From: Tautonia plasticadhaerens
Lineage (GTDB): Bacteria; Planctomycetota; Planctomycetia; Isosphaerales; Isosphaeraceae
DNA: 64,000 nucleotides
Assembly (NCBI RefSeq): GCF_007752535.1
Contig: NZ_CP036426.1
Location: forward strand, 1,240,001 to 1,304,000
Direction: 5' to 3'
In this document: positions 13,526 through 26,308 of the stretch, in pieces
How the letters are laid out: each line of letters starts with the position of its first letter
Numbering within the stretch: position 1 is the stretch's first letter
Notes under the pieces: generated by a model
What the model was told of the DNA's origin: nothing
The model's input: the letters and a program-made list of their open reading frames with translations, nothing else
The model's database searches: none
Position numbers and translations under genes: made by a program

Positions 13526-14459
13526 GGCCGACGCCCCCTCCCGGGCCGCCGTCGAGGCCGACTGGCCCGCCGGCGGCGTCCCCTCCCCCGGGCCGTCGCG
13601 TCCCGGGGGCGGCCCGCTCGCGCCGCCGGGCCGAGGGTTCGGGCCGATGCTGAGGAAGTACGCGATGATCTATCGCGTCTCGCTCGCCGACCGGATGACC
13701 TACCGGGCCGATTTCCTGATCACCACGATCTTCCGGTTTTTGCCGACCTTGACGACGATCCTCCTCTGGAGCGCGATCTACGACGGCGCCGGGCAGGAGA
13801 CGCTGGCGGGCTTCTCGTACGAGCAGGCGATCTGCTACCTGCTGATCGTGAACATCAGCCGGATGTTCAGCAGCATGCCGGGCCTGGCGGGGGGGATCGC
13901 CGGCGAGGTGAGGGACGGGACGCTCAAGAAGTACCTGATCCAGCCGCTGGACCTGATCGGGTATTTGCTCTCGTACCGGATGGCGCACAAGAGCGCGTAC
14001 ATCATCGGCACGGCCCTGCCGTACGCGATGCTGTTCGGCATCTGCTACAAGTTCTTCATCGGCAACGTGCCGACGGACCCGATGGTGTGGGCGGCGTACG
14101 TCGCCTCGCTGGTGATGGCGTTCCTGATCGGGTTCTTCTTCGAGGCGAGCGTGGGGATGGTGGGGTTCTGGTTCCTGGAGATCACGTCGATCCTCTGGGT
14201 GGTGATGACCCTGAACTTCTTCATCTCCGGCCAGATGCTGCCCCTGGACTTCCTCCCCCCGTTCTGGGCGGGCCTCCTGAAGCTCCTGCCGTTCCAGTAC
14301 ATGGCCTATTTCCCGGCGGTCGTCTTCCTGGAGAAGGTCCAGGGGGCCGAGCTGGCGTGGGGCCTGGCGCTGGAAGTGTTCTGGGTGGTGTTCTTCGTGG
14401 TGCTTTGCCGGTGGTTGTACACGAGGGGCCTGAAGCAGTACGGGGCCTACGGTGGGTAG
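13512..14459 (+). CDS. ABC-2 family permease (PF06182-like)
   Basis: The product is 315 aa. After a Pro-rich cytoplasmic N-terminus of about 45 residues, six membrane segments can be seen, including FLITTIFRFLPTLTTILLW, AYIIGTALPYAMLFGICY, YVASLVMAFLIGFFFEASVGMVGFW and VFWVVFFVVLCRWLY. RYRADFL-like and DGTLKKYLIQPLD motifs match permeases that work with NatA-like ATPases. Such exporters often have two different permeases; only one is encoded here, so a homodimer or a distant partner is inferred. The start overlaps the ATPase gene. Confidence 0.9.
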   Translation: MTPPEADAPSRAAVEADWPAGGVPSPGPSRPGGGPLAPPGRGFGPMLRKYAMIYRVSLADRMTYRADFLITTIFRFLPTLTTILLWSAIYDGAGQETLAGFSYEQAICYLLIVNISRMFSSMPGLAGGIAGEVRDGTLKKYLIQPLDLIGYLLSYRMAHKSAYIIGTALPYAMLFGICYKFFIGNVPTDPMVWAAYVASLVMAFLIGFFFEASVGMVGFWFLEITSILWVVMTLNFFISGQMLPLDFLPPFWAGLLKLLPFQYMAYFPAVVFLEKVQGAELAWGLALEVFWVVFFVVLCRWLYTRGLKQYGAYGG

Positions 14460-14500
14460 CGGTGCCTGATCTTCCGAGAGCGGGCGGAGGCCGAACGATC

Positions 14501-15406
14501 ATGCCCCGGTCTGCCGTGCTTGACGAGATCCGGCGACTCGACCCGGTGGCGGACTGCCAGCGGATCGTCCACCTGAGCACCACGCACGACTTCTCGTTCG
14601 ACACGACCAGGTCGCTGGAATTCGCCCTGTTCCGGACGTATTGCGTGCCGAGCATCTCCGGCCTGCTGGACCGGACCGGAGAGTTCCGGGCCCGGCCCCA
14701 GAAGCGGTACGACGACACGGACATCATCGTCAGCACCCTGCTGGAACACGGCTACGAGGGCGACCGCGGCCGGGACGCGATCCGGACGATGAACGGCATG
14801 CACCGCCGCTTCGACATCGACAACCGCGACTTTCTCTACGTCCTCTCCACCTTCGTCTTCGAGCCGATCCGCTGGAACGCCCGGTTCGGCTGGCGGCCGA
14901 TGATCGAGGTCGAGCGGCTGGCCCTCTTCCACTTCTGGGGGGAGGTGGGGAGGCGGATGGGGATCCGGGACATCCCCGGGGCGTATGACGCCTTTGATCG
15001 CCTCAACCTCGACTTCGAGCGGGAGCATTTCCGATTCGCCTCGTCGAATGCGACGATCGGCCGGGCCACGCTCGACCTCTTCCTGGGCTGGTACCCGAGG
15101 CCGCTCCGGCCCCTCGTCCGTCCGGCGATGTACGCGTTGATGGACGAGCCGATCCTGGAGGCCTTCGGCTTCCCGAGGCCGTCTCGGGCGACTCGGTCGA
15201 TGGTCCAGGCGGGGCTCGCGATGCGGGCGAGGCTGCTCCGGCTCATGCCGCCGAGGCGACGGCCGTACCTCCGGACCGAGCACCACCGGCCGAGGAGCTA
15301 TCCCCGGGGGTATCGGATGGCCGACCTCGGGCCGCCCCCGGGTCCTGACGGTGTGGAAGCCGGATCCGCGGGCCCGCCCGGACCTTCGGGGCGAGGCCCC
15401 GCCTGA
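14501..15406 (+). CDS. Oxygenase MpaB family protein (DUF2236)
   Basis: The product is 301 aa from the ATG at 14501. The family features are visible: an N-terminal helix with DFSFDTTRSLEFALFRTYCVPSIS, RYDDTDIIVSTLLEHGYEGD, the conserved MNGMHRRFDIDNRDFLYVLSTF core with likely haem-ligand His, and FHFWGEVGRRMGI. Relatives include fungal MpaB and latex-clearing rubber oxygenases, haem b enzymes that oxidise hydrocarbon chains; the substrate here is not predictable. It follows the ABC permease by 41 bp on the same strand and may be in the same transcript. The last 45 residues are low-complexity. Confidence 0.83.
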   Translation: MPRSAVLDEIRRLDPVADCQRIVHLSTTHDFSFDTTRSLEFALFRTYCVPSISGLLDRTGEFRARPQKRYDDTDIIVSTLLEHGYEGDRGRDAIRTMNGMHRRFDIDNRDFLYVLSTFVFEPIRWNARFGWRPMIEVERLALFHFWGEVGRRMGIRDIPGAYDAFDRLNLDFEREHFRFASSNATIGRATLDLFLGWYPRPLRPLVRPAMYALMDEPILEAFGFPRPSRATRSMVQAGLAMRARLLRLMPPRRRPYLRTEHHRPRSYPRGYRMADLGPPPGPDGVEAGSAGPPGPSGRGPA

Positions 15407-15467
15407 TCGAGGCGACACCCCCGCCGAGGGCCGAGCACCATCCCCTGACCCCCCCGAGGAGCGATCG

Positions 15468-17123
15468 ATGTCCCGACGGTCATTACGTCCATTCCTGATC
15501 CTTCTCGCGGTGGGTATGCCCTTGCCGGCGGGGGCGCTGGATGTCGGCCCCTATGATGTGGTGATCCGAAACGGCCTGGTCGTGGATGGCACCGGGAACG
15601 CCTGGTTCCTCGGCGATGTGGCGATCCGAGGTGATCGGATCGCCGAGATCACCCCCGCGGGGATGCTCGACGAAGCGGACGCGGAGGAGACGATCGACGC
15701 CTCGGGGAAGGTCGTCTGCCCGGGGTTCATCGACATTCAAAGTCATTCGAGAGAGCAATTGCTCTCGGGTGACGGTCGCGTGGTCGGCAAGGTCACGCAG
15801 GGCGTGACCACGGAGATCATGGGGGAGGGGACTTCGAACGCCCCTTCGAGTGATCCGGAGGAGTTCGACGTCCCCGGCGGGTTCGACCGCTGGCTCAGGG
15901 CGATGGATTCTCACGGCGTGTCGGTGAACTTGGGGTCGTTCGTCGGCTCGGGGACAGTGCGGAGCTACGTCAAGGGGATGGCCCAGGGCCCTCCGACCCC
16001 CGAGGAGCTGGAGCAAATGCGCGGGCTCGTCCGGGACGCGATGGAGGGCGGGGCGTTCGGTTTGGCGTCGGCGTTGATCTACCCCCCGGACTCCTTCGTC
16101 GCCACGGAGGACCTGATCGAGCTGTCGAAGGCGATGGCGCCCTATGGGGGCCTCTACATCACGCACCTGCGGTCGGAGGCGGATCGGCTGCTGGAGGCGA
16201 TCGACGAGGCGATCCGGATCGGCCGGGAGGGGGGCGTGCCGGTGGAGATCTACCACCTGAAGGCCGCCGGGGAGCGGAACTGGCCGAAGGCGATCCAGGC
16301 CATCCGGAAGATCGACTCCGCGAGGGCCGAGGGGCTGGACGTCGGCGCCGACATGTATCCCTACACCGCCGGCAGCACGGGGCTGACCGCGGCCCTGCCC
16401 CCCTGGGCGTCGGCCGACGGGAAGCTCTACGAGAACCTGGCCGACCCCGAGACGCGGTCGGAGATCAGGGCGGAAGTGCTGGACCCGACCACCGACTGGG
16501 AGAACCTCGCCGGGCTGTCCGGGCCGGAGAACGTGATCGTGCTCGGCTTGACGAAGCCGGAGACGAAGCAGTACGTCGGCAAAAGACTGTCCGAGATCGC
16601 CGGGGGCCGGGGCACGGACTGGGTCGACGCGGCGATCGACCTGCTGCTCGCCGAGCGGCAGCGGATCGGCACGATCTACGTCATGATGAGCGAGGAGAAC
16701 GTCGCGCTGCAGATGAAGCAGCCCTGGATGAAGTTCGGCACGGACGCCGGGGGCCACGACCCGGAGAAGGCGGGCGGGCTGGTGCACCCGAGGTCGTACG
16801 GCACCTACCCCCGGATCCTGGGCAAGTACGTCCGGGAGGAGGGGGTCATCCCGCTGGAGGAGGCGATCCGCAAGATGACCTCGGCGGTGGCCGATCGGCT
16901 GTCGATCCGGGATCGGGGGCTGCTCCGGGAGGGGATGTATGCCGACGTGGTCGTCTTCGACCCGGAGACGATCGCCGACCGGGCGACGTACGAGGACCCG
17001 CATCGCCTGTCGGTCGGCATCGAACACGTCTTCGTGAACGGCGAGGCGGTGGTGAGGGAGGGCGCCCACACCGGGGCGAAGCCGGGGAGGGTCGTCCGGG
17101 GTCCGGGTTATCGGGGGGAGTGA
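15468..17123 (+). CDS. N-acyl-D-amino-acid deacylase family amidohydrolase, exported
   Basis: The product is 551 aa from the ATG at 15468, with a signal peptide (LRPFLILLAVGMPLPAGA). The amidohydrolase fold is shown by YDVVIRNGLVVDGTGN, the altered first metal motif GFIDIQSHSRE, ITHLRSE, VEIYHLKAAGE and the catalytic Asp in FGTDAGGHDP. The C-terminus returns to the small beta-sandwich (YADVVVFDPETI). The family hydrolyses N-acyl-D-amino acids or D-amino-acid dipeptides, for instance from peptidoglycan or aged proteins. The stop codon overlaps the end of hisG, on the other strand, by 16 bp. Confidence 0.9.
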   Translation: MSRRSLRPFLILLAVGMPLPAGALDVGPYDVVIRNGLVVDGTGNAWFLGDVAIRGDRIAEITPAGMLDEADAEETIDASGKVVCPGFIDIQSHSREQLLSGDGRVVGKVTQGVTTEIMGEGTSNAPSSDPEEFDVPGGFDRWLRAMDSHGVSVNLGSFVGSGTVRSYVKGMAQGPPTPEELEQMRGLVRDAMEGGAFGLASALIYPPDSFVATEDLIELSKAMAPYGGLYITHLRSEADRLLEAIDEAIRIGREGGVPVEIYHLKAAGERNWPKAIQAIRKIDSARAEGLDVGADMYPYTAGSTGLTAALPPWASADGKLYENLADPETRSEIRAEVLDPTTDWENLAGLSGPENVIVLGLTKPETKQYVGKRLSEIAGGRGTDWVDAAIDLLLAERQRIGTIYVMMSEENVALQMKQPWMKFGTDAGGHDPEKAGGLVHPRSYGTYPRILGKYVREEGVIPLEEAIRKMTSAVADRLSIRDRGLLREGMYADVVVFDPETIADRATYEDPHRLSVGIEHVFVNGEAVVREGAHTGAKPGRVVRGPGYRGE

Positions 17124-18145
17124 GCTTCGAGCTGCTCGGCGAGGCGGTCGAAGGTGGACGTCGGCCCCTCGGAGTCGAAGAGGAAGCGGGTCGGCAGGCC
17201 GACGACGCGGCGGGCGCCGAGACGGATCAGCTCCCGGTGGTACGACGTGAGCCGGCCGGCGGCGACGAGGGCCGTGACCCGCCAGCAGGACCGGCCTCGC
17301 TCGTCCCAGACCTCTCCCCGGACGACGTGCTGGGCGCCCCGCTGGGCCAGGAACGCGGCGACGGCCGCGGCCTGGTACCCCTCCTCCGGGCCCCCGGCGA
17401 CCTCGAGCAACAACCGGCCGTCGGAGGCCCGGACGCCGTCGAGGCCGTCGAGCAGGAGGGCGAGGGGGCCGGAGTCTCCTTCAGCGATCAGTGCCTTCAG
17501 GCTCGGGGCGTGGCCGATGAGGCTGGCGGCCGATTCGAGGACCTTGCCCCCCTCGATCTCCCGGAGGCGGTTGTCCTTCAGGGTCGTGCCGGAGCTGGTG
17601 AGGTCGACGATGATGTCGGCGATGCCGAGGGTGGGGTGCAGCTCCAGGGCCCCCTCGGAGTGGATGATCTGGTAGTGGTAGATGCCCCAGCGGCGGAAGT
17701 GGGCCTGGGTCAGCGCGCCGTACTTGGTCGAGACGCGGAACGCCTTCCCGGCGGCCTTGAACTCGGTCGTCAGGTCGACCAGGTCGAGGACGTGGGTCAC
17801 GTCGATCCAGCTCTCGGGCACGGCCACCACGAGCCGGCAGCCGCCGTAGCCGAGGTCGGGCTCGACGACGACGGCGTCGGTCGCCTCGGCCTGGTGCTCG
17901 GCGAAGACGTCCATGCCGGTCACGCCCAGAGCGCACCGCCCCTCCTGCACCTGGACGACGATGTCCGTCGGCCTCATGAAGACGACGTGGAAGCGCGGGT
18001 GGCCGCCGATCGTCGCCTCGTACTGGCGGTCGCTGGCGCGTCGGACCTTGTAGCCGGCGGCCTTGAGCAGCTCGACGGCCCCCTCGTACAGGTGGCCCTT
18101 CGAGGGCAGGGCGATCCGGATGGGGTCGATGTTTGGTGGAGTCAT
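17108..18145 (-). CDS. hisG: ATP phosphoribosyltransferase HisG, long type
   Basis: The product is 345 aa and catalyses the first step of histidine synthesis (ATP + PRPP to phosphoribosyl-ATP). IRIALPSKGHLYEGAVELL begins the catalytic domain, and the PRPP loop is VDLTSSGTTLKDNRL (about 180-195). The catalytic part ends near residue 235. About 100 more residues (LLLEVAGGPEEGY to IRLGARRVVGLPTRF) look like the regulatory domain of long-form HisG. Short-form HisG needs HisZ while the long form normally does not, yet hisZ is in the same cluster. It is the last gene of the cluster, 29 bp after mazF. Confidence 0.93.
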   Translation of the reverse strand: MTPPNIDPIRIALPSKGHLYEGAVELLKAAGYKVRRASDRQYEATIGGHPRFHVVFMRPTDIVVQVQEGRCALGVTGMDVFAEHQAEATDAVVVEPDLGYGGCRLVVAVPESWIDVTHVLDLVDLTTEFKAAGKAFRVSTKYGALTQAHFRRWGIYHYQIIHSEGALELHPTLGIADIIVDLTSSGTTLKDNRLREIEGGKVLESAASLIGHAPSLKALIAEGDSGPLALLLDGLDGVRASDGRLLLEVAGGPEEGYQAAAVAAFLAQRGAQHVVRGEVWDERGRSCWRVTALVAAGRLTSYHRELIRLGARRVVGLPTRFLFDSEGPTSTFDRLAEQLEAHSPR

Positions 18146-18174
18146 GAGTGGGGCGGGGATGGGGCGGGAGCGGA

Positions 18175-18531
18175 TCAGTCAGGTGAAGGCAACAAGGTCG
18201 AGAGCTTCAACGCGACCTCATCGAGCGTTTCCGGGGGGATGCGGCAGGCGAATTCGGCCCGTCGGGTCCTCCAGTCGATGCTCTTCAGCTGATCGACGAG
18301 GATGACCCCGGAGATGGCGAGCCCCGGCGGCAAGGGGACCTCGAAGGGATAGCCCTTCACCCGAGAGGTGATCGGGCAGAACAGCCCGAGACCGACCCGT
18401 ACGTTGTACGATGCAGGCGAGAGCGTCAGGGCGGGGCGTCGACCGGCCTGTTCCCGGCCTGATTGTGGGGAGAAGTCGACCCAAACGACGTCCCCCCGAT
18501 CGGGGACGAGAGACGGATCGCCTGGGCTCAC
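18175..18531 (-). CDS. mazF: MazF-family endoribonuclease toxin
   Basis: The product is 118 aa from a GTG start that overlaps the antitoxin stop (TGGTGA). MazF/PemK features are DRGDVVWVDFSPQSGREQAGRRPAL near the N-terminus, then FCPITSRVKGYPFEVPLP and GVILVDQLKSIDWRTRRAEF with the conserved Thr/Ser and Asp-Gln region. MazF toxins cut mRNA at short sequences and are neutralised by MazE. Coupling to mazE supports a genuine toxin-antitoxin pair. The pair sits between hisZ and hisG on the same strand. Confidence 0.9.
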   Translation of the reverse strand: MSPGDPSLVPDRGDVVWVDFSPQSGREQAGRRPALTLSPASYNVRVGLGLFCPITSRVKGYPFEVPLPPGLAISGVILVDQLKSIDWRTRRAEFACRIPPETLDEVALKLSTLLPSPD

Positions 18532-18764
18532 CAAACTTCCTCCCCGGTCGGGGGTCCGGTGTCGAAGGCGTCGTGGCGGTTCTCGGCGGTGATTTGATCG
18601 AGGAGGTCTTCGAGCCGATACCGCCGGGTCGGTCGGACCACGAGGGCACCGTCTCGGATCGAGACCTCGACCGATGTCCCCTCCTCGAGGCCGGCCTCCC
18701 GGGCGATGGACTCGGGGATGGGCACGCCGAGCCCCTCTCCAAGCTTCTGGATCGTGGATAGCAT
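18528..18764 (-). CDS. mazE: MazE-like (AbrB-fold) antitoxin
   Basis: The product is 78 aa. The N-terminal swapped-hairpin DNA-binding domain is seen in TIQKLGEGLGVPIPESIAREAGLEEGTSVEVS, followed by VVRPTRRYRLEDLLDQI and an acidic tail for toxin binding. It starts 23 bp after the hisZ stop and overlaps mazF by 4 bp. MazE-type antitoxins repress their own promoter, but no clear separate promoter is visible in the 23-bp gap, so expression may depend on the upstream his genes. Confidence 0.9.
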   Translation of the reverse strand: MLSTIQKLGEGLGVPIPESIAREAGLEEGTSVEVSIRDGALVVRPTRRYRLEDLLDQITAENRHDAFDTGPPTGEEVW

Positions 18765-18787
18765 CGCCGTCTCGCCTCCGAGCAGAT

Positions 18788-20026
18788 TCAGCCCTCGCGG
18801 AGCCCCTCGATGGCATGATACAGCCGCTCGACGCCGAAGGCGAACCCGACGCCGTGGGGGTCTCGGTCGGAGCCGAGGACGGTGGCGAGGCCGTCGTATC
18901 GTCCGCCGTGGCAGATGCCGAGGGGGCCGGAGGGGGTGGAGACGGACAGCTCGAAGATCATTTGCGAGTAGAAGCCGATGCCGTGGCCGAAGCCGAGGTC
19001 CAACTCGACGCGCTCCGGGGGGATGCCCCGCGCCTCGAGCTGGCGGAGCATCTCCAGGAACCCCCGGATCGTGCCGGGGGCCAGGGCGGCGAAGCCCTGT
19101 TCGAGCCCCTGGAGCACCTCGACGGCGGGCCCCCGGAGGTCGGCCAGCTCGTGGACCCGGGCGCGGACCCGGCCGAGGGCGTCCCCCAGGGAGTGGCCCA
19201 GGGCCCATTTCCTGCGCAGGCGGTTGATGATCTCATGGCCGGTCCGGCGGCCGGTGACCCGGGGGACGAGGTGGCGGAAGAGGCGGTCGACGCCGGGGTC
19301 GTCGGCCCGGTCGATGGCCGGGAGGACCGCCTCGGCCTGCTGCTCGGCGTCGCCGTGCAGCCAGCCGGCCAGCCGGTCGAGGGCGGTCTCCAGGGCCCGG
19401 ACGTTGCGGCCCTCGGAGGCGGCGTCGCTGAGGTGCTCGACCAGGCTCGACACGGCGGCCGAGGGGAGGCCGGAGCGCTCCAGCAGCTCGACGATCAGGC
19501 CGGTGTGCCCGACCCGGATCGAGGCGTCGGGGATGCCCGCGGCGGCGGCGGAGTCGAGGGCGAGGGCGATCACCTCCGCGTCGGCTTCGGGGCCGGGTGC
19601 GCCGAGCAGCTCGACGCCCGCCTGGGTGAACTCGCGGTACCGGGTCGGCCCGGGTTCGCGCTCATAGCGGAAGACGGGGCCGGAGGAGCACACGCGCCAG
19701 GGCAGCTCGGGGGCCTCCGGGGTGTCGATGAACGCCCGGACGATGCTGGCGGTCAGCTCGGGGCGGAGGCAGAGGCGGGCCGGGCCGTCGGCGACCTCGA
19801 ACAGCTTGGAGACGATCGCGGCGCCGCTCTTGCGCTCGTGCAGCTCGGTCCCTTCGAGGATCGGCGTCTTGACGGGCCGGAAGCCTGAGGCGGCGAAGCG
19901 ATCCATGAGGGACCGCTCCAGCGAGGCGATGGCGGCGTAGTCGTCGGGCAGCCAGTCCCGGGTGCCCCGGACCTGGGGGATGGGGGCCTCGCGTTGCGTC
20001 GGGGTGCCGGGGGGGGGATCGGTCAT
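18788..20026 (-). CDS. hisZ: HisZ-like ATP phosphoribosyltransferase regulatory subunit
   Basis: The product is 412 aa with a class II aminoacyl-tRNA-synthetase fold: VRGTRDWLPDDYAAIASLE, VFRYEREPGPTRYREFTQAGVE (motif 2) and GICHGGRYDGLA near the end. The HisRS histidine-A motif GLxRGLDYYTG is replaced by LGFGHGIGFYSQ, and the protein ends without the anticodon-binding domain, so it should not charge tRNA and fits HisZ. It lies 69 bp downstream of hisS. I call it the HisG regulator, but the long HisG beside it leaves the exact role open. Confidence 0.85.
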   Translation of the reverse strand: MTDPPPGTPTQREAPIPQVRGTRDWLPDDYAAIASLERSLMDRFAASGFRPVKTPILEGTELHERKSGAAIVSKLFEVADGPARLCLRPELTASIVRAFIDTPEAPELPWRVCSSGPVFRYEREPGPTRYREFTQAGVELLGAPGPEADAEVIALALDSAAAAGIPDASIRVGHTGLIVELLERSGLPSAAVSSLVEHLSDAASEGRNVRALETALDRLAGWLHGDAEQQAEAVLPAIDRADDPGVDRLFRHLVPRVTGRRTGHEIINRLRRKWALGHSLGDALGRVRARVHELADLRGPAVEVLQGLEQGFAALAPGTIRGFLEMLRQLEARGIPPERVELDLGFGHGIGFYSQMIFELSVSTPSGPLGICHGGRYDGLATVLGSDRDPHGVGFAFGVERLYHAIEGLREG

Positions 20027-20095
20027 GGTGGGGGGGAGGTCGGGTGGCGGCGGGGTGGGGGCGGTGTCCGAGATCGGCGTCGAGGGGCGGTCGGC

Positions 20096-21490
20096 TCAGT
20101 CGGCCGACGGCCGGGAGCCCAGCAGCCCGAGGGCGCTCTGGACCGAGTCTTCCAGGGTCGAGAGGGCGAGGCCCTTATCCTCCTGGCGGGTGGCGAGGAC
20201 GCGGAGGTTGAAGACCTCGGCCTGCTCCTCGTCGGGGCCGACAATCACGGCGACGGCGTGCCCCCGGGTCGAGCCGTAGCCCATCTGCTTGCCCACGGAG
20301 ATCGGCTCGGGATAGACCTCGGCGCCGATGCCGGAGGCCCGCAGGCGGGCGGCGATCCTGACGGGGGTGGTGGGGGAGACGCCGGGGAAGTAGGCGACCA
20401 GCACCGGGGCGGTGGTGGCCGAGGAGGGGAGCCGGCCGGCCTCCTCCATCAGGGCGAGCAGGCGGTCGAGGCCGATCGAGGCGCCGACCCCGGGGAGGCG
20501 ACGCTTGATATAAAGGCTCGCCAGGTCGTCGTAGCGGCCCCCGGAGCTGATGGAGCCGAAGCGTTCCCAGCCGTCGACGGTCGTCTCGAAGACGATGCCG
20601 GTGTAGTAGTCCAGCCCCCGGGCGAGGCCGAGGTCGAGCTTCAGGCGGTCCTGGGGGACGCCGGCGGCGTCGAGCAGGTCGAGCACGGTCCGGAGGTTGG
20701 CGATCCCCTCCCGGGCCGTCTCGTGGGGGCCGAGGCGGGACTCGGCCATCGAGAGGACGGCGTCGCCGGGACCCTTGCCCTGCTCGACGAGGTCGAGGAG
20801 CCGGGCCGCGTCGGCCTCGGGCATGGTCGGCCCCTCGGGGACGCCTCCCGGTTCAACCGCCCTGGGGTGGGAGGTCAGTTCCTTGAGGACGCCGTCACGG
20901 CCGACCTTGCCGAGCTTGTCCAGGGCGCGGAGGACGGCGGCCTTGCGGTCGATCACGCCGAAGGAGTCGAGCAGGCCGTCGAGGATCTTGCGGTTATTCA
21001 GGTGGATCGAGAACGCGGGGACGTCGATCGCCGCCAGGGCGTCGTGGATGAGCTGGGCGGTCTCGGCGTCGGAGACGGGGCTCTCGGTGCCGACGGTGTC
21101 GAAGTCGCATTGGGTGAATTCGCGGAAGCGGCCCTTGGCGGGCCGCTCGCCGCGGAAGACCGAGCCGATGGCGTAGCGCTTGAAGGGCGTCCCGAGCTGG
21201 TCGACGTGCTTCGCCACGAACCGGGCCAGCGGGACGGTCAGGTCGAACCGGAGGGCCAGCTCGCCGGGGGTGCCCCCCTTATTGGTCACCTCGAAGATCT
21301 GGCGAAGGACCTCGTCGGAGCCGGCCCCCTTGCCGGTGAGGACCTCGAGGCGCTCGATGTGGGGGGTCTCGATCGGCACGAAGCCGAACGAGGAGAACGT
21401 CGAGCGCAGGGCCTCGAGCATCCGCTCCCGGGGGATCATGGCCGACGGGGGGATGTCCCTCAGCCCGCTGGCCACGCGGGGGTCGATCAT
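20096..21490 (-). CDS. hisS: Histidyl-tRNA synthetase
   Basis: The product is 464 aa from the ATG at 21490. Class II motifs are present: RFDLTVPLARFVA, motif 2 FRGERPAKGRFREFTQCDFD, the histidine-A signature GLARGLDYYTG, ISSGGRYDDL, and motif 3 in GVGASIGLDRLLALM. A C-terminal anticodon-binding domain follows (VLVAYFPGVSP to VFNLRVLATRQED). The enzyme charges tRNA-His and should be essential. It is the first gene of the hisS-hisZ-mazE-mazF-hisG unit. Confidence 0.95.
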   Translation of the reverse strand: MIDPRVASGLRDIPPSAMIPRERMLEALRSTFSSFGFVPIETPHIERLEVLTGKGAGSDEVLRQIFEVTNKGGTPGELALRFDLTVPLARFVAKHVDQLGTPFKRYAIGSVFRGERPAKGRFREFTQCDFDTVGTESPVSDAETAQLIHDALAAIDVPAFSIHLNNRKILDGLLDSFGVIDRKAAVLRALDKLGKVGRDGVLKELTSHPRAVEPGGVPEGPTMPEADAARLLDLVEQGKGPGDAVLSMAESRLGPHETAREGIANLRTVLDLLDAAGVPQDRLKLDLGLARGLDYYTGIVFETTVDGWERFGSISSGGRYDDLASLYIKRRLPGVGASIGLDRLLALMEEAGRLPSSATTAPVLVAYFPGVSPTTPVRIAARLRASGIGAEVYPEPISVGKQMGYGSTRGHAVAVIVGPDEEQAEVFNLRVLATRQEDKGLALSTLEDSVQSALGLLGSRPSAD

Positions 21491-21593
21491 CGGTCGCGGA
21501 TCCTCCGAGAGCGTGCCGGTCCGGGTTCGATCGCGACGGCCGGGGGCTCGGTCCCCTCCGGGGGGCGTCGCGCGATCTCTGAGTGGGAAGGCC

Positions 21594-21623
21594 ATTGTAG
21601 CAACCGGCGTCCGGGTTGCCCAA
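21594..21623 (-). promoter_or_regulatory. Candidate promoter for hisS
   Basis: On the minus strand TTGGGC (21623-21618) and TACAAT (21599-21594) are separated by 18 bp. Transcription would start near 21587, about 97 nt before the hisS ATG. It is the best sigma-70-like match in the divergent hisS-ettA region and would serve the whole his-mazEF cluster. Confidence 0.5.
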
Positions 21624-21847
21624 CGGCCATCGGCCCCGGGCCGCCCCGCGCCGGATCTCCGGATCTAGTGCGGCTTCACCCTGGCCGGGGGAGACGCGGG
21701 GGGATCGACTGGGGTTCCGTGGCGTGATCGGATCGGTTCTAATGAACATGATCGGGCGGCCGGGTGGGAGGCGTTCCATGCGCCCGGCCCCGGCCGCCCG
21801 GGTTGCTCCCCATCCCCGCCGTCGAGCCTCGCACCCCGGGATCGTCG

Positions 21848-23524
21848 ATGCCCCCGCAGTACATCTTCTCCATCGAGCGGCTGTCGAAGAACCACGGCAA
21901 AAAGGAAGTCCTCAAGGACATCACCCTGATGTTCTACCCGGGGGCCAAGATCGGCGTCCTCGGTCCCAATGGCGCGGGGAAGAGCACGCTCCTGCGGATC
22001 ATGGCCGGCGAGGAGAAGGAGTTCCTCGGCGCCGCGAAGCCCGCCCCGGGGGCGACGATCGGCTTCGTGCCCCAGGAGCCGCGGCTCAACCCCGAGAAGG
22101 ACGTGAGGGGGAACGTCGAGGAGGCGGTCGGCCCGGTCCGGGCCCTGCTGAAGCGGTTCGACGAGATCAACGCCCGGCTCGCCGAGGGGCCCGACGCCGA
22201 CGAGATGGACGCGCTGCTCGCCGAGCAGGCCGACGTGCAGGACGGCATCGAGGCCGCCGACGGCTGGGAGCTGGAGCGTCGGCTCGAGATCGCCATGGAC
22301 GCCATGAGGCTCCCCCCCGGCGACGCCGACGTCTCCACGCTCTCCGGCGGCGAACGGCGACGGGTGGCGCTCTGCAAGATCCTGCTCCAGCGCCCCGACA
22401 TCCTGCTGCTGGACGAGCCGACCAACCACCTCGACGCCGACAGCGTGGCCTGGCTGGAGCGGCACCTCCAGGAATACCCGGGCATGATCGTGGCCGTCAC
22501 CCACGATCGTTACTTCCTGGACAACGTCGCCCAATGGATCCTCGAGCTCGACCGGGGCCGGGGCATCCCCTTCGAGGGGAACTACACCGGCTGGCTGGAG
22601 CAGAAGCAGGCCCGGCTGGAGAAGGAGGAGAAGGCCGACCGCTTCCGCAAGAAGACCCTCGAACGGGAACTGGAGTGGATCCGGATGGCACCCCGGGCCC
22701 GGGTGGCCAAGAACCGGGCCCGCATCCAGCGCTACGAGCAGCTCGCCGCCGAGGAGGCCGACCGCCGGGACGAGCCGGTGACCATCCAGATCCCCCCCGG
22801 CCCCCACCTGGGGGACCTCGTCGTCGAGGCCGAGAACGTCTCCAAGGCGTTCGGCGACAACATCCTCTTCGAGAACATGAACTTCCGGCTGCCCCCCGGC
22901 GGCATCGTCGGCGTGATCGGGGCCAACGGCGCCGGCAAGACGACCATGTTCCGGATGATCGTCGGCCAGGAGGCACCCGACTCGGGCATCCTCCGGGTCG
23001 GCGACACGGTGAAGCTCTCCTACGTCGACCAGAATCGGGACGCGCTGGACCCCGACAAGACGATCTTCCAGGAGATCAGCGGCGGGCTCGACCAGATCGA
23101 GCTGGGCAAGCGGAAGGTCCCCTCCCGGGCCTACGTCTCCTGGTTCAACTTCCGGGGGCCGGACCAGGAGAAGAAGGTCGGCAAGCTCTCCGGGGGCGAG
23201 CGGAACCGGGTCCACCTGGCCAAGCTGCTCACGACCGGCGGCAACCTGCTGCTGCTGGACGAGCCGTCGAACGACCTGGACGTGGACACGCTCCGCGCCC
23301 TGGAGGACGCCCTGCTGGACTTCTCCGGCTGCGCGGTCGTCATCAGCCACGACCGCTGGTTCCTCGACCGGATCGCCACCCACATCCTCGCCTTCGAGGG
23401 GGAGAGCCGGGTGGTCTGGTGCGACGGCAACTTCGACACGTACCTGACCCAGCGTCGGGAGCGGCTCGGCATCGAGGCCGACCAGCCCCACCGGATCAAG
23501 TACAAGAACCTGGTCCGGGGTTGA
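21848..23524 (+). CDS. ettA: Energy-dependent translational throttle protein EttA (ABC-F)
   Basis: The product is 558 aa from the ATG at 21848 ([17 protein letters not shown]), a typical EttA start and length. There are two ATPase domains: Walker [10 protein letters not shown] and GANGAGKTT, signatures [11 protein letters not shown] and [11 protein letters not shown], and Walker [13 protein letters not shown] and [12 protein letters not shown]. The arm and linker region carries the EttA-like [20 protein letters not shown]. There is no membrane segment. ABC-F proteins bind the ribosomal E site; EttA gates entry into elongation when ATP is low. Confidence 0.95.
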
Positions 23525-23548
23525 ACCCTCCCGGGGGCGGGAACGGGT

Positions 23549-23573
23549 GCCGACGGCCTCCGAGGCCGTCGGC
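23549..23573 (+). terminator. Hairpin after ettA
   Basis: GCCGACGGCCT and AGGCCGTCGGC form a perfect 11-bp stem with a CCG loop, 24 bp after the ettA stop. No T-run follows, so it is either a Rho-assisted end or a stability hairpin. Confidence 0.55.
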
Positions 23574-23701
23574 TCGTCGATCGCTGGTCGAGTGTGTATA
23601 ACAGGACGGGGGAGCTGGGTCGAGTTTCCGGGGCGAGTCCCGGGTCGGCCCCGGGCCGAACCCGACCCGTTGACGCCTCGATCTCCGCCGAGACCGACAC
23701 C

Positions 23702-26308
23702 GTGACCGCTCCCCGAGACGCCGACGCCCCGGAGCTTGCCGGCCGGTCGCCCGATCCTCCCGGCCTCGAGATCGGCTGGACGCCGTCGCTGTTCCGGCGC
23801 CGGGCCGGGCGGGGGCCCGGATTGGTCGCCGTCGAGGGCCCTTCGGGCTCCGTCTCGTACGGGGACCTCGACCGGGTGACCGATCGCTGGGCATCGGTCC
23901 TGAGTGGAGAGGGCGTCGGGCCGGGCGTCCTCGTCGCCCTGACCATGCCGAGGTCGGTCGAGGCCGTGGCCGCGATGCTGGCCGTGATGAAGGCCGGGGG
24001 CGCGTTCCTGCCGATCGACCCGGATTATCCCACCGCCCGGGTCGCCTTCTTGCTGAAGGATTCCGCCTCGCCGGTCGTCCTGTCGACCGACTCGCTCGCC
24101 CCCGGGCTGCCGGTGACGGGGGCCCGGGTGCTGACGATCCGCGAGATCGACCGCGGGTCCGATGACCCCGGGACGGCCCCGCCCCCCGAGGGCGATCCCG
24201 GGGACCCGGCCTACGCGATCTACACCTCGGGGTCGACCGGCCGGCCGAAGGCGGCGTTGATCTCCCATCGGGGGATCGGCCCCTTGGCGAGGTCACAGGC
24301 CGAGGCGTTCGGGATCGGGCCGGGGACGCGGGTCTTGCAGTTCGCCTCGCTCGGATTCGACGCCTCGATCAGCGAGATCCTCGTCACGCTGCTCTCCGGG
24401 GGGACGGTGTGCGTCTCGGAGGCGTCGGGCCTCGTGCCGGGCCCGGCGCTGTCGGGGACGCTCCGGAGGCGGTCGATCCACGTCGCCACGCTGCCGCCGA
24501 CGGTGCTCGGGCTGCTGCCGGAGGGCCCGTATCCGGACCTCCGGACCCTCGTGGTGGCCGGGGAGGCGTGCCCGGCGGGGCTGGCGTCTCGATGGTCGGT
24601 CGGCCGCAAGTTCATCAACGCCTACGGCCCGACCGAGGCGACCGTCTGCGTCTCGCTGCACGTCTGCCCGGGAGGTGCCCAGCCGGCGCCGCCGATCGGT
24701 CGGCCGTTGCCCCACGTGGAGGCCCTCGTGCTCGACGAGGCCGGGGATCCCGTCCCGGACGAAACGCCCGGCGAGCTGGCGATCGGCGGGCCGGGGCTCG
24801 CCCTCGGCTACCTGCACCGACCCGGCCTGACCGCCGAGCGCTTCCCCCCCCATCCGACGGCGACCGACCCCGAGACCCGGGTCTACCGGACCGGCGACCG
24901 GGTGATCCGGAGGGCGGACGGCGTGCTGGAATTCCTGGGTCGGGTCGACGACCAGGTGAAGATCCGCGGGGTCCGGATCGAGCCCGGCGAGGTCCGGGGG
25001 GCGATCGAGGCCATCGAGGGGGTCCGGGCCGCGGCCGTCCTGGCCGAGGGGGAGGGGAGGGACCGCCACCTGGCCGCCTTCGTTGTCCCGGGGAGGGGGA
25101 GCGGCCTCTCGGTCGATCGGATCCGCGAGGACCTCCGGGATCGGCTGCCGATCCACCTGCTCCCCCCCCGGATCACCCTCGTCGACCGGCTGCCGACCAC
25201 CCCCCACGGCAAGCTCGACCGGGCCGCCCTGGCCGGGCTGGATCCCCGGCGGGTGCAGGGGACCTCGACGGCCCCGCCCCGCACCCCGCCTCGGGACGCT
25301 CCGGAGCTGGAGGTGGCCCGGGCCTGGGAGGAGCTGTTCGGCCGGGAGGTCGGCGTGGACGACGACTTCTTCGCGCTCGGGGGCGATTCGCTCTCGGCGA
25401 TGGATCTCCTCGCCCGGATCGCCCGGCGATGCGGCGAGGCGCTGCCGATCGCCGCCCTGCTGGACGACCCGACCGTCGCCGGGTTGGCCTCGGCCCTGGC
25501 CGAACGTCGGGGGCCTGGGGGGTGGTCCCCGCTGGTGCCGATCCGGGCCGAGGGGAGCCGGCATCCCCTGTACTGCGTCCACCCGGGCGGCGGGAACGTC
25601 CTCTGTTACGTCGAACTGGCCAGGGCGCTCGGGCCGGCCCAGCCGCTGTTCGGCCTGCAGGCGCCCGGGGTCGACGAGGGGAGGGCGCCGCTGACCTCGG
25701 TCGAGGCGATGGCGGACGAGTACCTCGACGCCATCCGATCGGCCCGGCCGTCCGGACCGATCCGGCTCTGCGGCTGGTCATTCGGCGGCGTGGTCGCCTT
25801 CGAGATGGCCCGGAAGCTGGCCGAGGAGGGCCGGCCGGTCGACCGCCTGGTGCTGCTCGACGCCGGGTTCCTCTATTCGTTCGCGATCCTCCGCGGCCTG
25901 ATCCCCAGCGAACAGCCGCTCGTCCGGTTCCTCGGCGCGAAGAGGGACGCGATCTTCCCCGAGTTCCGGAGGCATGCGGGGCGGTCCCAGGTCGTCCCCC
26001 CGGGGGCCTCGGAGGCCCTGACCCGCCGCGTCTTCGAGGTCTTCATGGCCAACGTCGAGGCGCTCTACGCCTATCGCCCCGCCCCCTACCGCGGGGGGGC
26101 GATCACCCTGATGATGGCCGAGGAGCCGTTCGCCGACCGCCGGAGGGACCCTGTCGACGAGTGGCGTCGGCTCTGCGACGACCTGGACGTCGTCCCCGTG
26201 CCCGGCAATCACCTGACGATGCTCCGGCCGCCGCACGTCGGGGCGCTGGCCGACCGGCTCGGGGAGCGGCTCCGACGGGCCCCGGTCGGGGGACGATCGC
26301 ATGGCTGA
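23702..26308 (+). CDS. Single-module NRPS: adenylation - carrier - thioesterase
   Basis: The product is 868 aa from GTG 23702; an earlier in-frame GTG at 23594 is possible, but TATAAC at 23597 may be a -10 box. The adenylation domain (about 20-545) shows YTSGSTGRPKA, FDASISEI, NAYGPTEATV, RTGDR and TPHGKLDR. Aligned by eye to GrsA, the specificity positions read about D-A-S-T-V-A-A-V-C-K, near codes for aromatic amino acids (inference). The carrier has FFALGGDSLSAMD (Ser about 562). The thioesterase has GWSFGG (Ser about 693) and a late His in GNHLTML. There is no condensation domain, so it may release or dimerise a single activated acid. It overlaps the methyltransferase gene by 8 bp. Confidence 0.88.
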   Translation: MTAPRDADAPELAGRSPDPPGLEIGWTPSLFRRRAGRGPGLVAVEGPSGSVSYGDLDRVTDRWASVLSGEGVGPGVLVALTMPRSVEAVAAMLAVMKAGGAFLPIDPDYPTARVAFLLKDSASPVVLSTDSLAPGLPVTGARVLTIREIDRGSDDPGTAPPPEGDPGDPAYAIYTSGSTGRPKAALISHRGIGPLARSQAEAFGIGPGTRVLQFASLGFDASISEILVTLLSGGTVCVSEASGLVPGPALSGTLRRRSIHVATLPPTVLGLLPEGPYPDLRTLVVAGEACPAGLASRWSVGRKFINAYGPTEATVCVSLHVCPGGAQPAPPIGRPLPHVEALVLDEAGDPVPDETPGELAIGGPGLALGYLHRPGLTAERFPPHPTATDPETRVYRTGDRVIRRADGVLEFLGRVDDQVKIRGVRIEPGEVRGAIEAIEGVRAAAVLAEGEGRDRHLAAFVVPGRGSGLSVDRIREDLRDRLPIHLLPPRITLVDRLPTTPHGKLDRAALAGLDPRRVQGTSTAPPRTPPRDAPELEVARAWEELFGREVGVDDDFFALGGDSLSAMDLLARIARRCGEALPIAALLDDPTVAGLASALAERRGPGGWSPLVPIRAEGSRHPLYCVHPGGGNVLCYVELARALGPAQPLFGLQAPGVDEGRAPLTSVEAMADEYLDAIRSARPSGPIRLCGWSFGGVVAFEMARKLAEEGRPVDRLVLLDAGFLYSFAILRGLIPSEQPLVRFLGAKRDAIFPEFRRHAGRSQVVPPGASEALTRRVFEVFMANVEALYAYRPAPYRGGAITLMMAEEPFADRRRDPVDEWRRLCDDLDVVPVPGNHLTMLRPPHVGALADRLGERLRRAPVGGRSHG

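Follow-up and report, generated by a model that had tools for sequence, protein, structure and literature searches.

A mazEF toxin-antitoxin pair between the hisZ-like and hisG genes of Tautonia plasticadhaerens, a probable lineage-specific insertion

Genes and proteins of the locus

The window, as the whole 64-kb stretch of Tautonia plasticadhaerens DNA analysed here is called, contains a run of five genes, hisS, a hisZ-like gene, mazE, mazF and hisG, which all lie on the minus strand with gaps of 69, 23, -4 and 29 bp, and the positions of the open reading frames (ORFs) agree with the original prediction on each of these points. A divergent ABC-F-like gene lies upstream of this operon and a convergent D-acylase-like ORF downstream (both names come from reading the sequence), and the host genome, of 9.4 Mb in 6 contigs, contains a single HisG match, which is the hisG of the window. 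The features of the locus, in the direction of transcription, are the following.

21594-21622, minus strand: probable operon promoter, a -35-like TGGGCA (within GTTGGGC) plus an extended -10, TGCTACAAT; 104 nt before hisS
20096-21490, minus strand: hisS, histidyl-tRNA synthetase (HisRS), first gene of the operon; TIGR00442, 356 bits (cutoff 287)
18788-20026, minus strand: hisZ-like HisRS paralogue, second gene; best match TIGR00443 (221 bits; cutoff 272, not reached); PF13393
18815-18820, minus strand: TATCAT, a possible but weak internal -10 within the 3' end of hisZ, 50 nt ahead of mazE
18765-18787, minus strand: hisZ-mazE spacer, 23 bp, with a GGAGG ribosome site and no recognisable promoter
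18528-18764, minus strand: mazE, antitoxin, 78 aa; PF04014, 34.4 bits (cutoff 24.7)
18175-18531, minus strand: mazF, toxin, 118 aa, GTG start; PF02452, 91.2 bits (cutoff 23.1); NCBIfam MazF equivalog NF007386, 125.7 bits (cutoff 120)
18146-18174, minus strand: mazF-hisG spacer, 29 bp, C-rich, no terminator found on the minus strand, no GGAGG
17108-18145, minus strand: hisG, final gene of the operon, 345 aa; TIGR00070, 179 bits (cutoff 76)

Family scans support the identification of both embedded genes as MazEF, and the two look intact and typical. A solved MazF endoribonuclease (PDB 7d28) was matched over residues 8-115 of the toxin, and residues 1-78 of MazE align with the MazE of PDB 7d2n. 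As an AbrB-like antitoxin with a C-terminal tail, MazE matches MazE/PemI chains (7d2n, 1mvf and 1ub4) up to its C-terminus; 7d28 and 7d2n are presumably the MazEF proteins of Deinococcus radiodurans. The matches of mazE to the NCBIfam MazE and ChpS equivalogs are below their cutoffs. The antitoxin gene comes first, the mazF start overlaps the mazE stop by 4 bp (18528-18531), and GGAGG ribosome sites precede both genes. MazF proteins cut mRNA at a short motif unless MazE is bound, and in the window the MazE protein would likewise bind and neutralise MazF, a predicted mRNA endoribonuclease, as in ordinary MazEF. Counts of ACA and UACA in the operon genes, with ACA also compared to synonymous shuffles, gave no clear signal of MazF site avoidance: ACA occurs 5 times in hisS (8.6 in shuffles), 3 in hisZ (3.2), 2 in mazE (2.1), 3 in mazF (1.3) and 5 in hisG (7.0), and UACA occurs once each in hisS, mazF and hisG and in neither hisZ nor mazE.

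The original prediction placed the pair between HisZ and its partner HisG. The placement holds; the partnership is an assumption, because this HisG has a C-terminal part and yet a HisZ-like neighbour. Long HisG proteins carry a regulatory domain in the same chain and short ones are activated by HisZ, according to the literature (PMC10795190). The HisG of the window has 345 aa, with extra residues at about 218-345, and so differs from the short form of the HisGS-HisZ type, in which HisG is without a C-terminal domain; the solved HisGs that it matches range from 206 to 352 aa. All 20 family members that were aligned (chosen from 43) possess the C-terminal part, and hisG has a HisZ-like neighbour in 41 of 42 HisG-bearing relatives. 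A HisG of 345 aa beside a HisZ-like gene is at odds with the customary division into long HisG on its own and short HisG paired with HisZ, and the combination merits a study of its own.

The best solved relative of the whole protein is 6czl, a 352-aa HisG that we take to be that of Medicago, with profile positions 5-328 aligned, and the whole HisG profile aligns to HisGs sampled at the class level (99.6%). Fifteen of 22 class-level proteins were fetched for this purpose; one (L192) gave no match, and another (L190), read in the wrong frame, is included in the whole-profile comparison and was left out of the hhalign comparison. Taken alone, the C-terminal part had no Pfam match in any of five proteins (5/5), retrieved no HisG from the PDB in a search up to E 10, and reached an hhalign probability of 1.6% (P 0.03) against the class-level HisGs, with 0.2% (P 0.25) for a reversed control. 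A single-sequence fold was uninformative (mean pLDDT 36.8). Assignment of the C-terminal part as a HisG_C domain is therefore not supported, the part alone being without a significant relative by sequence. The HisZ-like protein also varies in the family, as it has ~85-140 extra C-terminal residues in many genera (e.g. L006-L020), and this extension is missing in the genus of the window and a few others (e.g. L003-L005, L021, L022, L029-L031).

The hisZ-hisG junction and the origin of the pair

To compare the hisZ-hisG junction in related genomes, as the original prediction had proposed, HisG was sought in 44 other genomes of the family and matched in 42, the two misses (G020 and G034) both being genomes of 77% completeness. 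Of the 42 genomes with HisG, 41 have hisZ on the same stretch as hisG; one of these junctions (G061) was read on a second contig (L136) where hisG is incomplete, a further stretch (L127) being without hisZ, and another genome (G065) has a run of N within hisG. G007 (L149) is arranged otherwise, since the 17 kb read around its hisG contain neither hisS nor hisZ.

Of the junctions compared, that of the window genome alone carries mazEF. There was no mazE or mazF match at any of the 41 readable junctions of relatives, and in every one of them hisG begins to align no more than 61 bp from the hisZ stop. In 34 of the 41, including all three congeners, hisZ ends in a 4-bp overlap with an in-frame start codon. 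The congeners, whose proteins are 82-84% (HisZ) and 88-92% (HisG) identical to those of the window, have hisS directly before hisZ and the same order, hisS-hisZ-hisG, with no mazEF. In the window genome, the only one to represent its species, the hisZ stop is 642 bp from the hisG start and hisZ is homologous to its congeners until about the last five codons, so the insert covers roughly these 642 bp or barely more than that. Around it there were only short or low-identity repeats, none of them recognisable as a target-site duplication or a terminal repeat.

These observations strongly support a recent insertion that spared the operon, which the original prediction had offered as one of two readings: the junction is filled in only 1 of 42 readable genomes, and the flanking genes are intact. 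We therefore assign a probability of about 0.86 to mazEF being a lineage-specific insertion of an ordinary MazEF pair. The ancestral hisZ/hisG junction was most likely a 4-bp stop/start overlap, which a horizontally acquired type II MazEF cassette of ~640 bp would have entered, leaving both flanks intact. Since the same genes adjoin without the pair in relatives, the locus looks like a known kind of event and not a new regulatory circuit.

Codon usage and phylogeny suggest that mazEF probably came from elsewhere. The GC3 values of mazE (0.81) and mazF (0.78; both together 0.80) are unusual beside those of hisS, hisZ and hisG (0.951-0.957), and composition alone would not prove a foreign origin, because windows of equal length (197 codons) in the D-acylase ORF as listed, a weak control on the codon argument, fall to 0.79 at its 5' end. 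The MazF of the window is the only match in its own genome (E up to 0.01); with a threshold of E 1e-6, one or more matches appear in 10 of the 45 family genomes, that of the window included, and in none of the other three of its genus. Among at least 506 confirmed relatives of MazF in public genomes, the best 80 are 57-68% identical and scattered over many phyla (Chloroflexi, Acidobacteria, Proteobacteria, Cyanobacteria, Planctomycetota and others). In a FastTree phylogeny of 85 sequences, the nearest neighbour is a proteobacterial metagenome-assembled genome (MAG; L057; support 0.85, with a long path of 0.72), and no clear donor lineage emerged.

Two other histories of the pair were considered. 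Loss of toxin-antitoxin pairs is common, which would favour an ancestral mazEF that was lost many times in the family, but such a history needs loss in 41 of 41 relatives with a 4-bp overlap left behind in 34, and it would leave the codon usage of a long-term resident unadapted; its probability is close to negligible. That the pair is strain-specific debris, a degraded and inactive remnant, is in line with its presence in a single lineage. This reading, by which the original prediction could have fallen, is nevertheless highly improbable, as both ORFs are full length and align nearly end to end with solved MazE and MazF, the 4-bp overlap between them is kept, and each gene has a GGAGG site. 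In the favoured reading, the inserted pair works as an ordinary MazEF and is probably maintained mainly by selfish addiction or by a general stress or phage response, and its persistence requires no role in histidine metabolism.

Transcription and the proposed link to histidine

A scan of positions 14500-23000 returned one sigma70-like promoter site, which lies upstream of hisS (0.3 expected by shuffling), and, on the plus strand, two sites that resemble terminators. The -10 element TGCTACAAT occurs once within the 64-kb window and is conserved upstream of hisS in all four genomes of the genus, that of the window counted, at 104, 66, 48 and 47 nt, each time preceded by GTTGGG. Among three other genera, one (L142) has TGGTACAAT at 44 nt, and the TGCTACAAT pattern found none in two (L143, L144). 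The hisS promoter (GTTGGG...TGCTACAAT) is a useful reference for promoters in this group.

By comparison, neither a promoter nor a terminator of its own was recognisable for mazEF in the 23-bp and 29-bp spacers that flank it, so the pair most likely relies on read-through. The original prediction had asked for internal promoters ahead of mazE to be sought, and none was recognised in the 23 bp of the spacer (18765-18787). Given bare, short spacers and a conserved promoter, it is probably right in proposing that the hisS promoter drives transcription of mazEF together with the his genes, and we consider read-through from that promoter to be a probable mode of expression. The cassette would bring its own ribosome sites and draw its transcription, most likely, from the conserved promoter ahead of hisS. 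In addition, the absence of a GGAGG before hisG, together with the loss of the overlap with hisZ, suggests that the yield of HisG may have changed.

Alternatively, mazEF could have its own promoter in the 3' end of hisZ and be expressed, in full or in part, independently of the his genes. The candidate is TATCAT (18820-18815), 50 nt before mazE and the only promoter-like element in the preceding 100 nt; it differs from its counterparts in the three congeners (TACCAC, TATCAC and TATCAC) and is made of codons that are rare in hisS, hisZ, hisG and the ABC-F gene together (TAT for 4 of 33 Tyr, CAT for 2 of 41 His), the D-acylase ORF having TAT for 5 of 17 Tyr and CAT for 2 of 9 His. Related pairs are also mostly more spaced, with a same-strand upstream gap of at most 70 bp in 13, the window included, of the 76 loci at which an upstream gene was called. 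However, the scan accepted no -35 for TATCAT and did not return it in its output, and the hexamer is part of a hisZ coding stretch that has homologous counterparts at the empty sites, so independent expression appears unlikely.

Co-transcription had also been taken to link toxin release to histidine supply or the charging of tRNA-His. If mazEF had been recruited in this way, its levels would follow the hisS promoter, and a shortage of histidine or tRNA-His would lower MazE and free MazF. The position within the operon and the likely co-transcription are in favour of such a circuit, and in E. coli amino acid starvation represses mazEF via ppGpp, as reported in PMC3920265, so a link to starvation is possible in principle. 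Yet the arrangement occurs in 1 of 42 genomes with a readable junction, and in 0 of the 41 relatives among them, so that it lacks the conservation expected of a regulated part of the histidine operon; codon usage suggests a recent arrival, a histidine response of the hisS promoter is without support, and the neighbours of four related mazEF pairs include no histidine-related genes. An Rfam scan of 14000-24000 found no T-box, leader or riboswitch, nor any other regulatory RNA family, above threshold. Its sole match was EAV_LTH, with 23.5 bits against a gathering score of 70 (E 0.051), which was rejected as a histidine-sensing leader before hisS and attributed to chance. The claim of a tie to histidine thus finds no support, recruitment is very improbable, and the locus warns against reading position in an operon as regulation.

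It can also be imagined that a promoterless mazEF was captured by an essential amino acid operon and is, or is becoming, a readout of that operon, its dose being set by the hisS promoter; the pair would then be kept since its loss puts the only detected hisG at risk, and small cassettes may land preferentially where operon genes meet in a stop/start overlap. We regard this as improbable.

Related loci and known toxin-antitoxin insertions

The surroundings of mazEF were compared over 85 loci, namely that of the window, the best 80 of at least 506 relatives and four family loci, two of the loci (L068 and L145) being apparently the same place. Genes were called on both sides of the pair at 68 of the 85, and with this crude gene caller six, the window included, have same-strand neighbours within 70 bp on both sides. 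Some of these depend on how the genes are read: among the five beside the window, L051 and L118 rest on weak ORFs, and in L122 the real ispG start is probably ~150 bp further on, because most relatives align from about residue 60 of the ORF called there. Whether L104 counts as tight depends on the mazE start chosen (20 bp or 104 bp). The convincing tight loci beside the window are L072 and L111, and no general preference of related mazEF for operon interiors is claimed from the 85 loci.

The locus of an Ignavibacteria MAG (L111), leuS-mazEF-serS, resembles the window in that a related mazEF lies between two genes that are close together without the pair: leuS and serS are ~50 bp apart in its nearest relative (L151), and leuS is upstream of serS in 14 of the 15 relatives read, with mazEF in none of the 15. 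It differs from the window in its host operon and in having 59 bp before mazE, possibly enough for a promoter. The same junction (L150-L153) carries a DUF1016/YhcG nuclease in one relative and a PDDEXK_3 gene in another, so that in Ignavibacteria the gap between these two tRNA synthetase genes is a plastic site at which different genes land. The PDDEXK_3 gene (L153:992-1481) lies between the two arms of an inverted repeat, GGGACGCAGATT on one side and its complement on the other; this 12-mer has three copies in the L153 genome, two of which are this pair, and is absent from the three other genomes searched.

Insertions of this kind are known from model bacteria. In E. coli, mazEF lies between relA and mazG and another toxin-antitoxin pair between dinB and yafP, in each case between co-directional genes of an operon, and strains without the pair keep an undisturbed bicistronic operon, as the relatives of the window keep theirs (PMC7167474 and PMC1626106). 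One of these, a review, describes an event of this kind for both regions (PMC7167474). The corresponding empty site, with both flanks present, was found in 3 of 3 congeners and in all 41 readable family junctions. The window differs from the E. coli cases in its host operon, hisS-hisZ-hisG, and in having only 23 bp before mazE; moreover, E. coli mazEFG is preceded by two promoters, according to PMC3920265, whereas none is recognisable for the mazEF of the window. Similarly, the Staphylococcus aureus mazEF is transcriptionally linked to a chromosomal operon, sigB, but it sits upstream of sigB under a regulated promoter of its own (PMC3920265), while the pair in the window lies inside an amino acid operon. 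The S. aureus pair is reportedly not autoregulated in that account, so autoregulation is no strict requirement for MazEF (PMC3920265).

In the open-licence literature, no paper was found that joins mazEF with hisG and histidine biosynthesis. The movement and integration of toxin-antitoxin pairs were called unelucidated in a 2020 review (PMC7167474), and recent insertions with several empty relatives are material for studying them. Alongside the relA-mazG and dinB-yafP examples, the T. plasticadhaerens locus adds a toxin-antitoxin insertion outside the model bacteria whose filled and empty sites can be compared cleanly, in the operon that contains the only detected hisG of its host.
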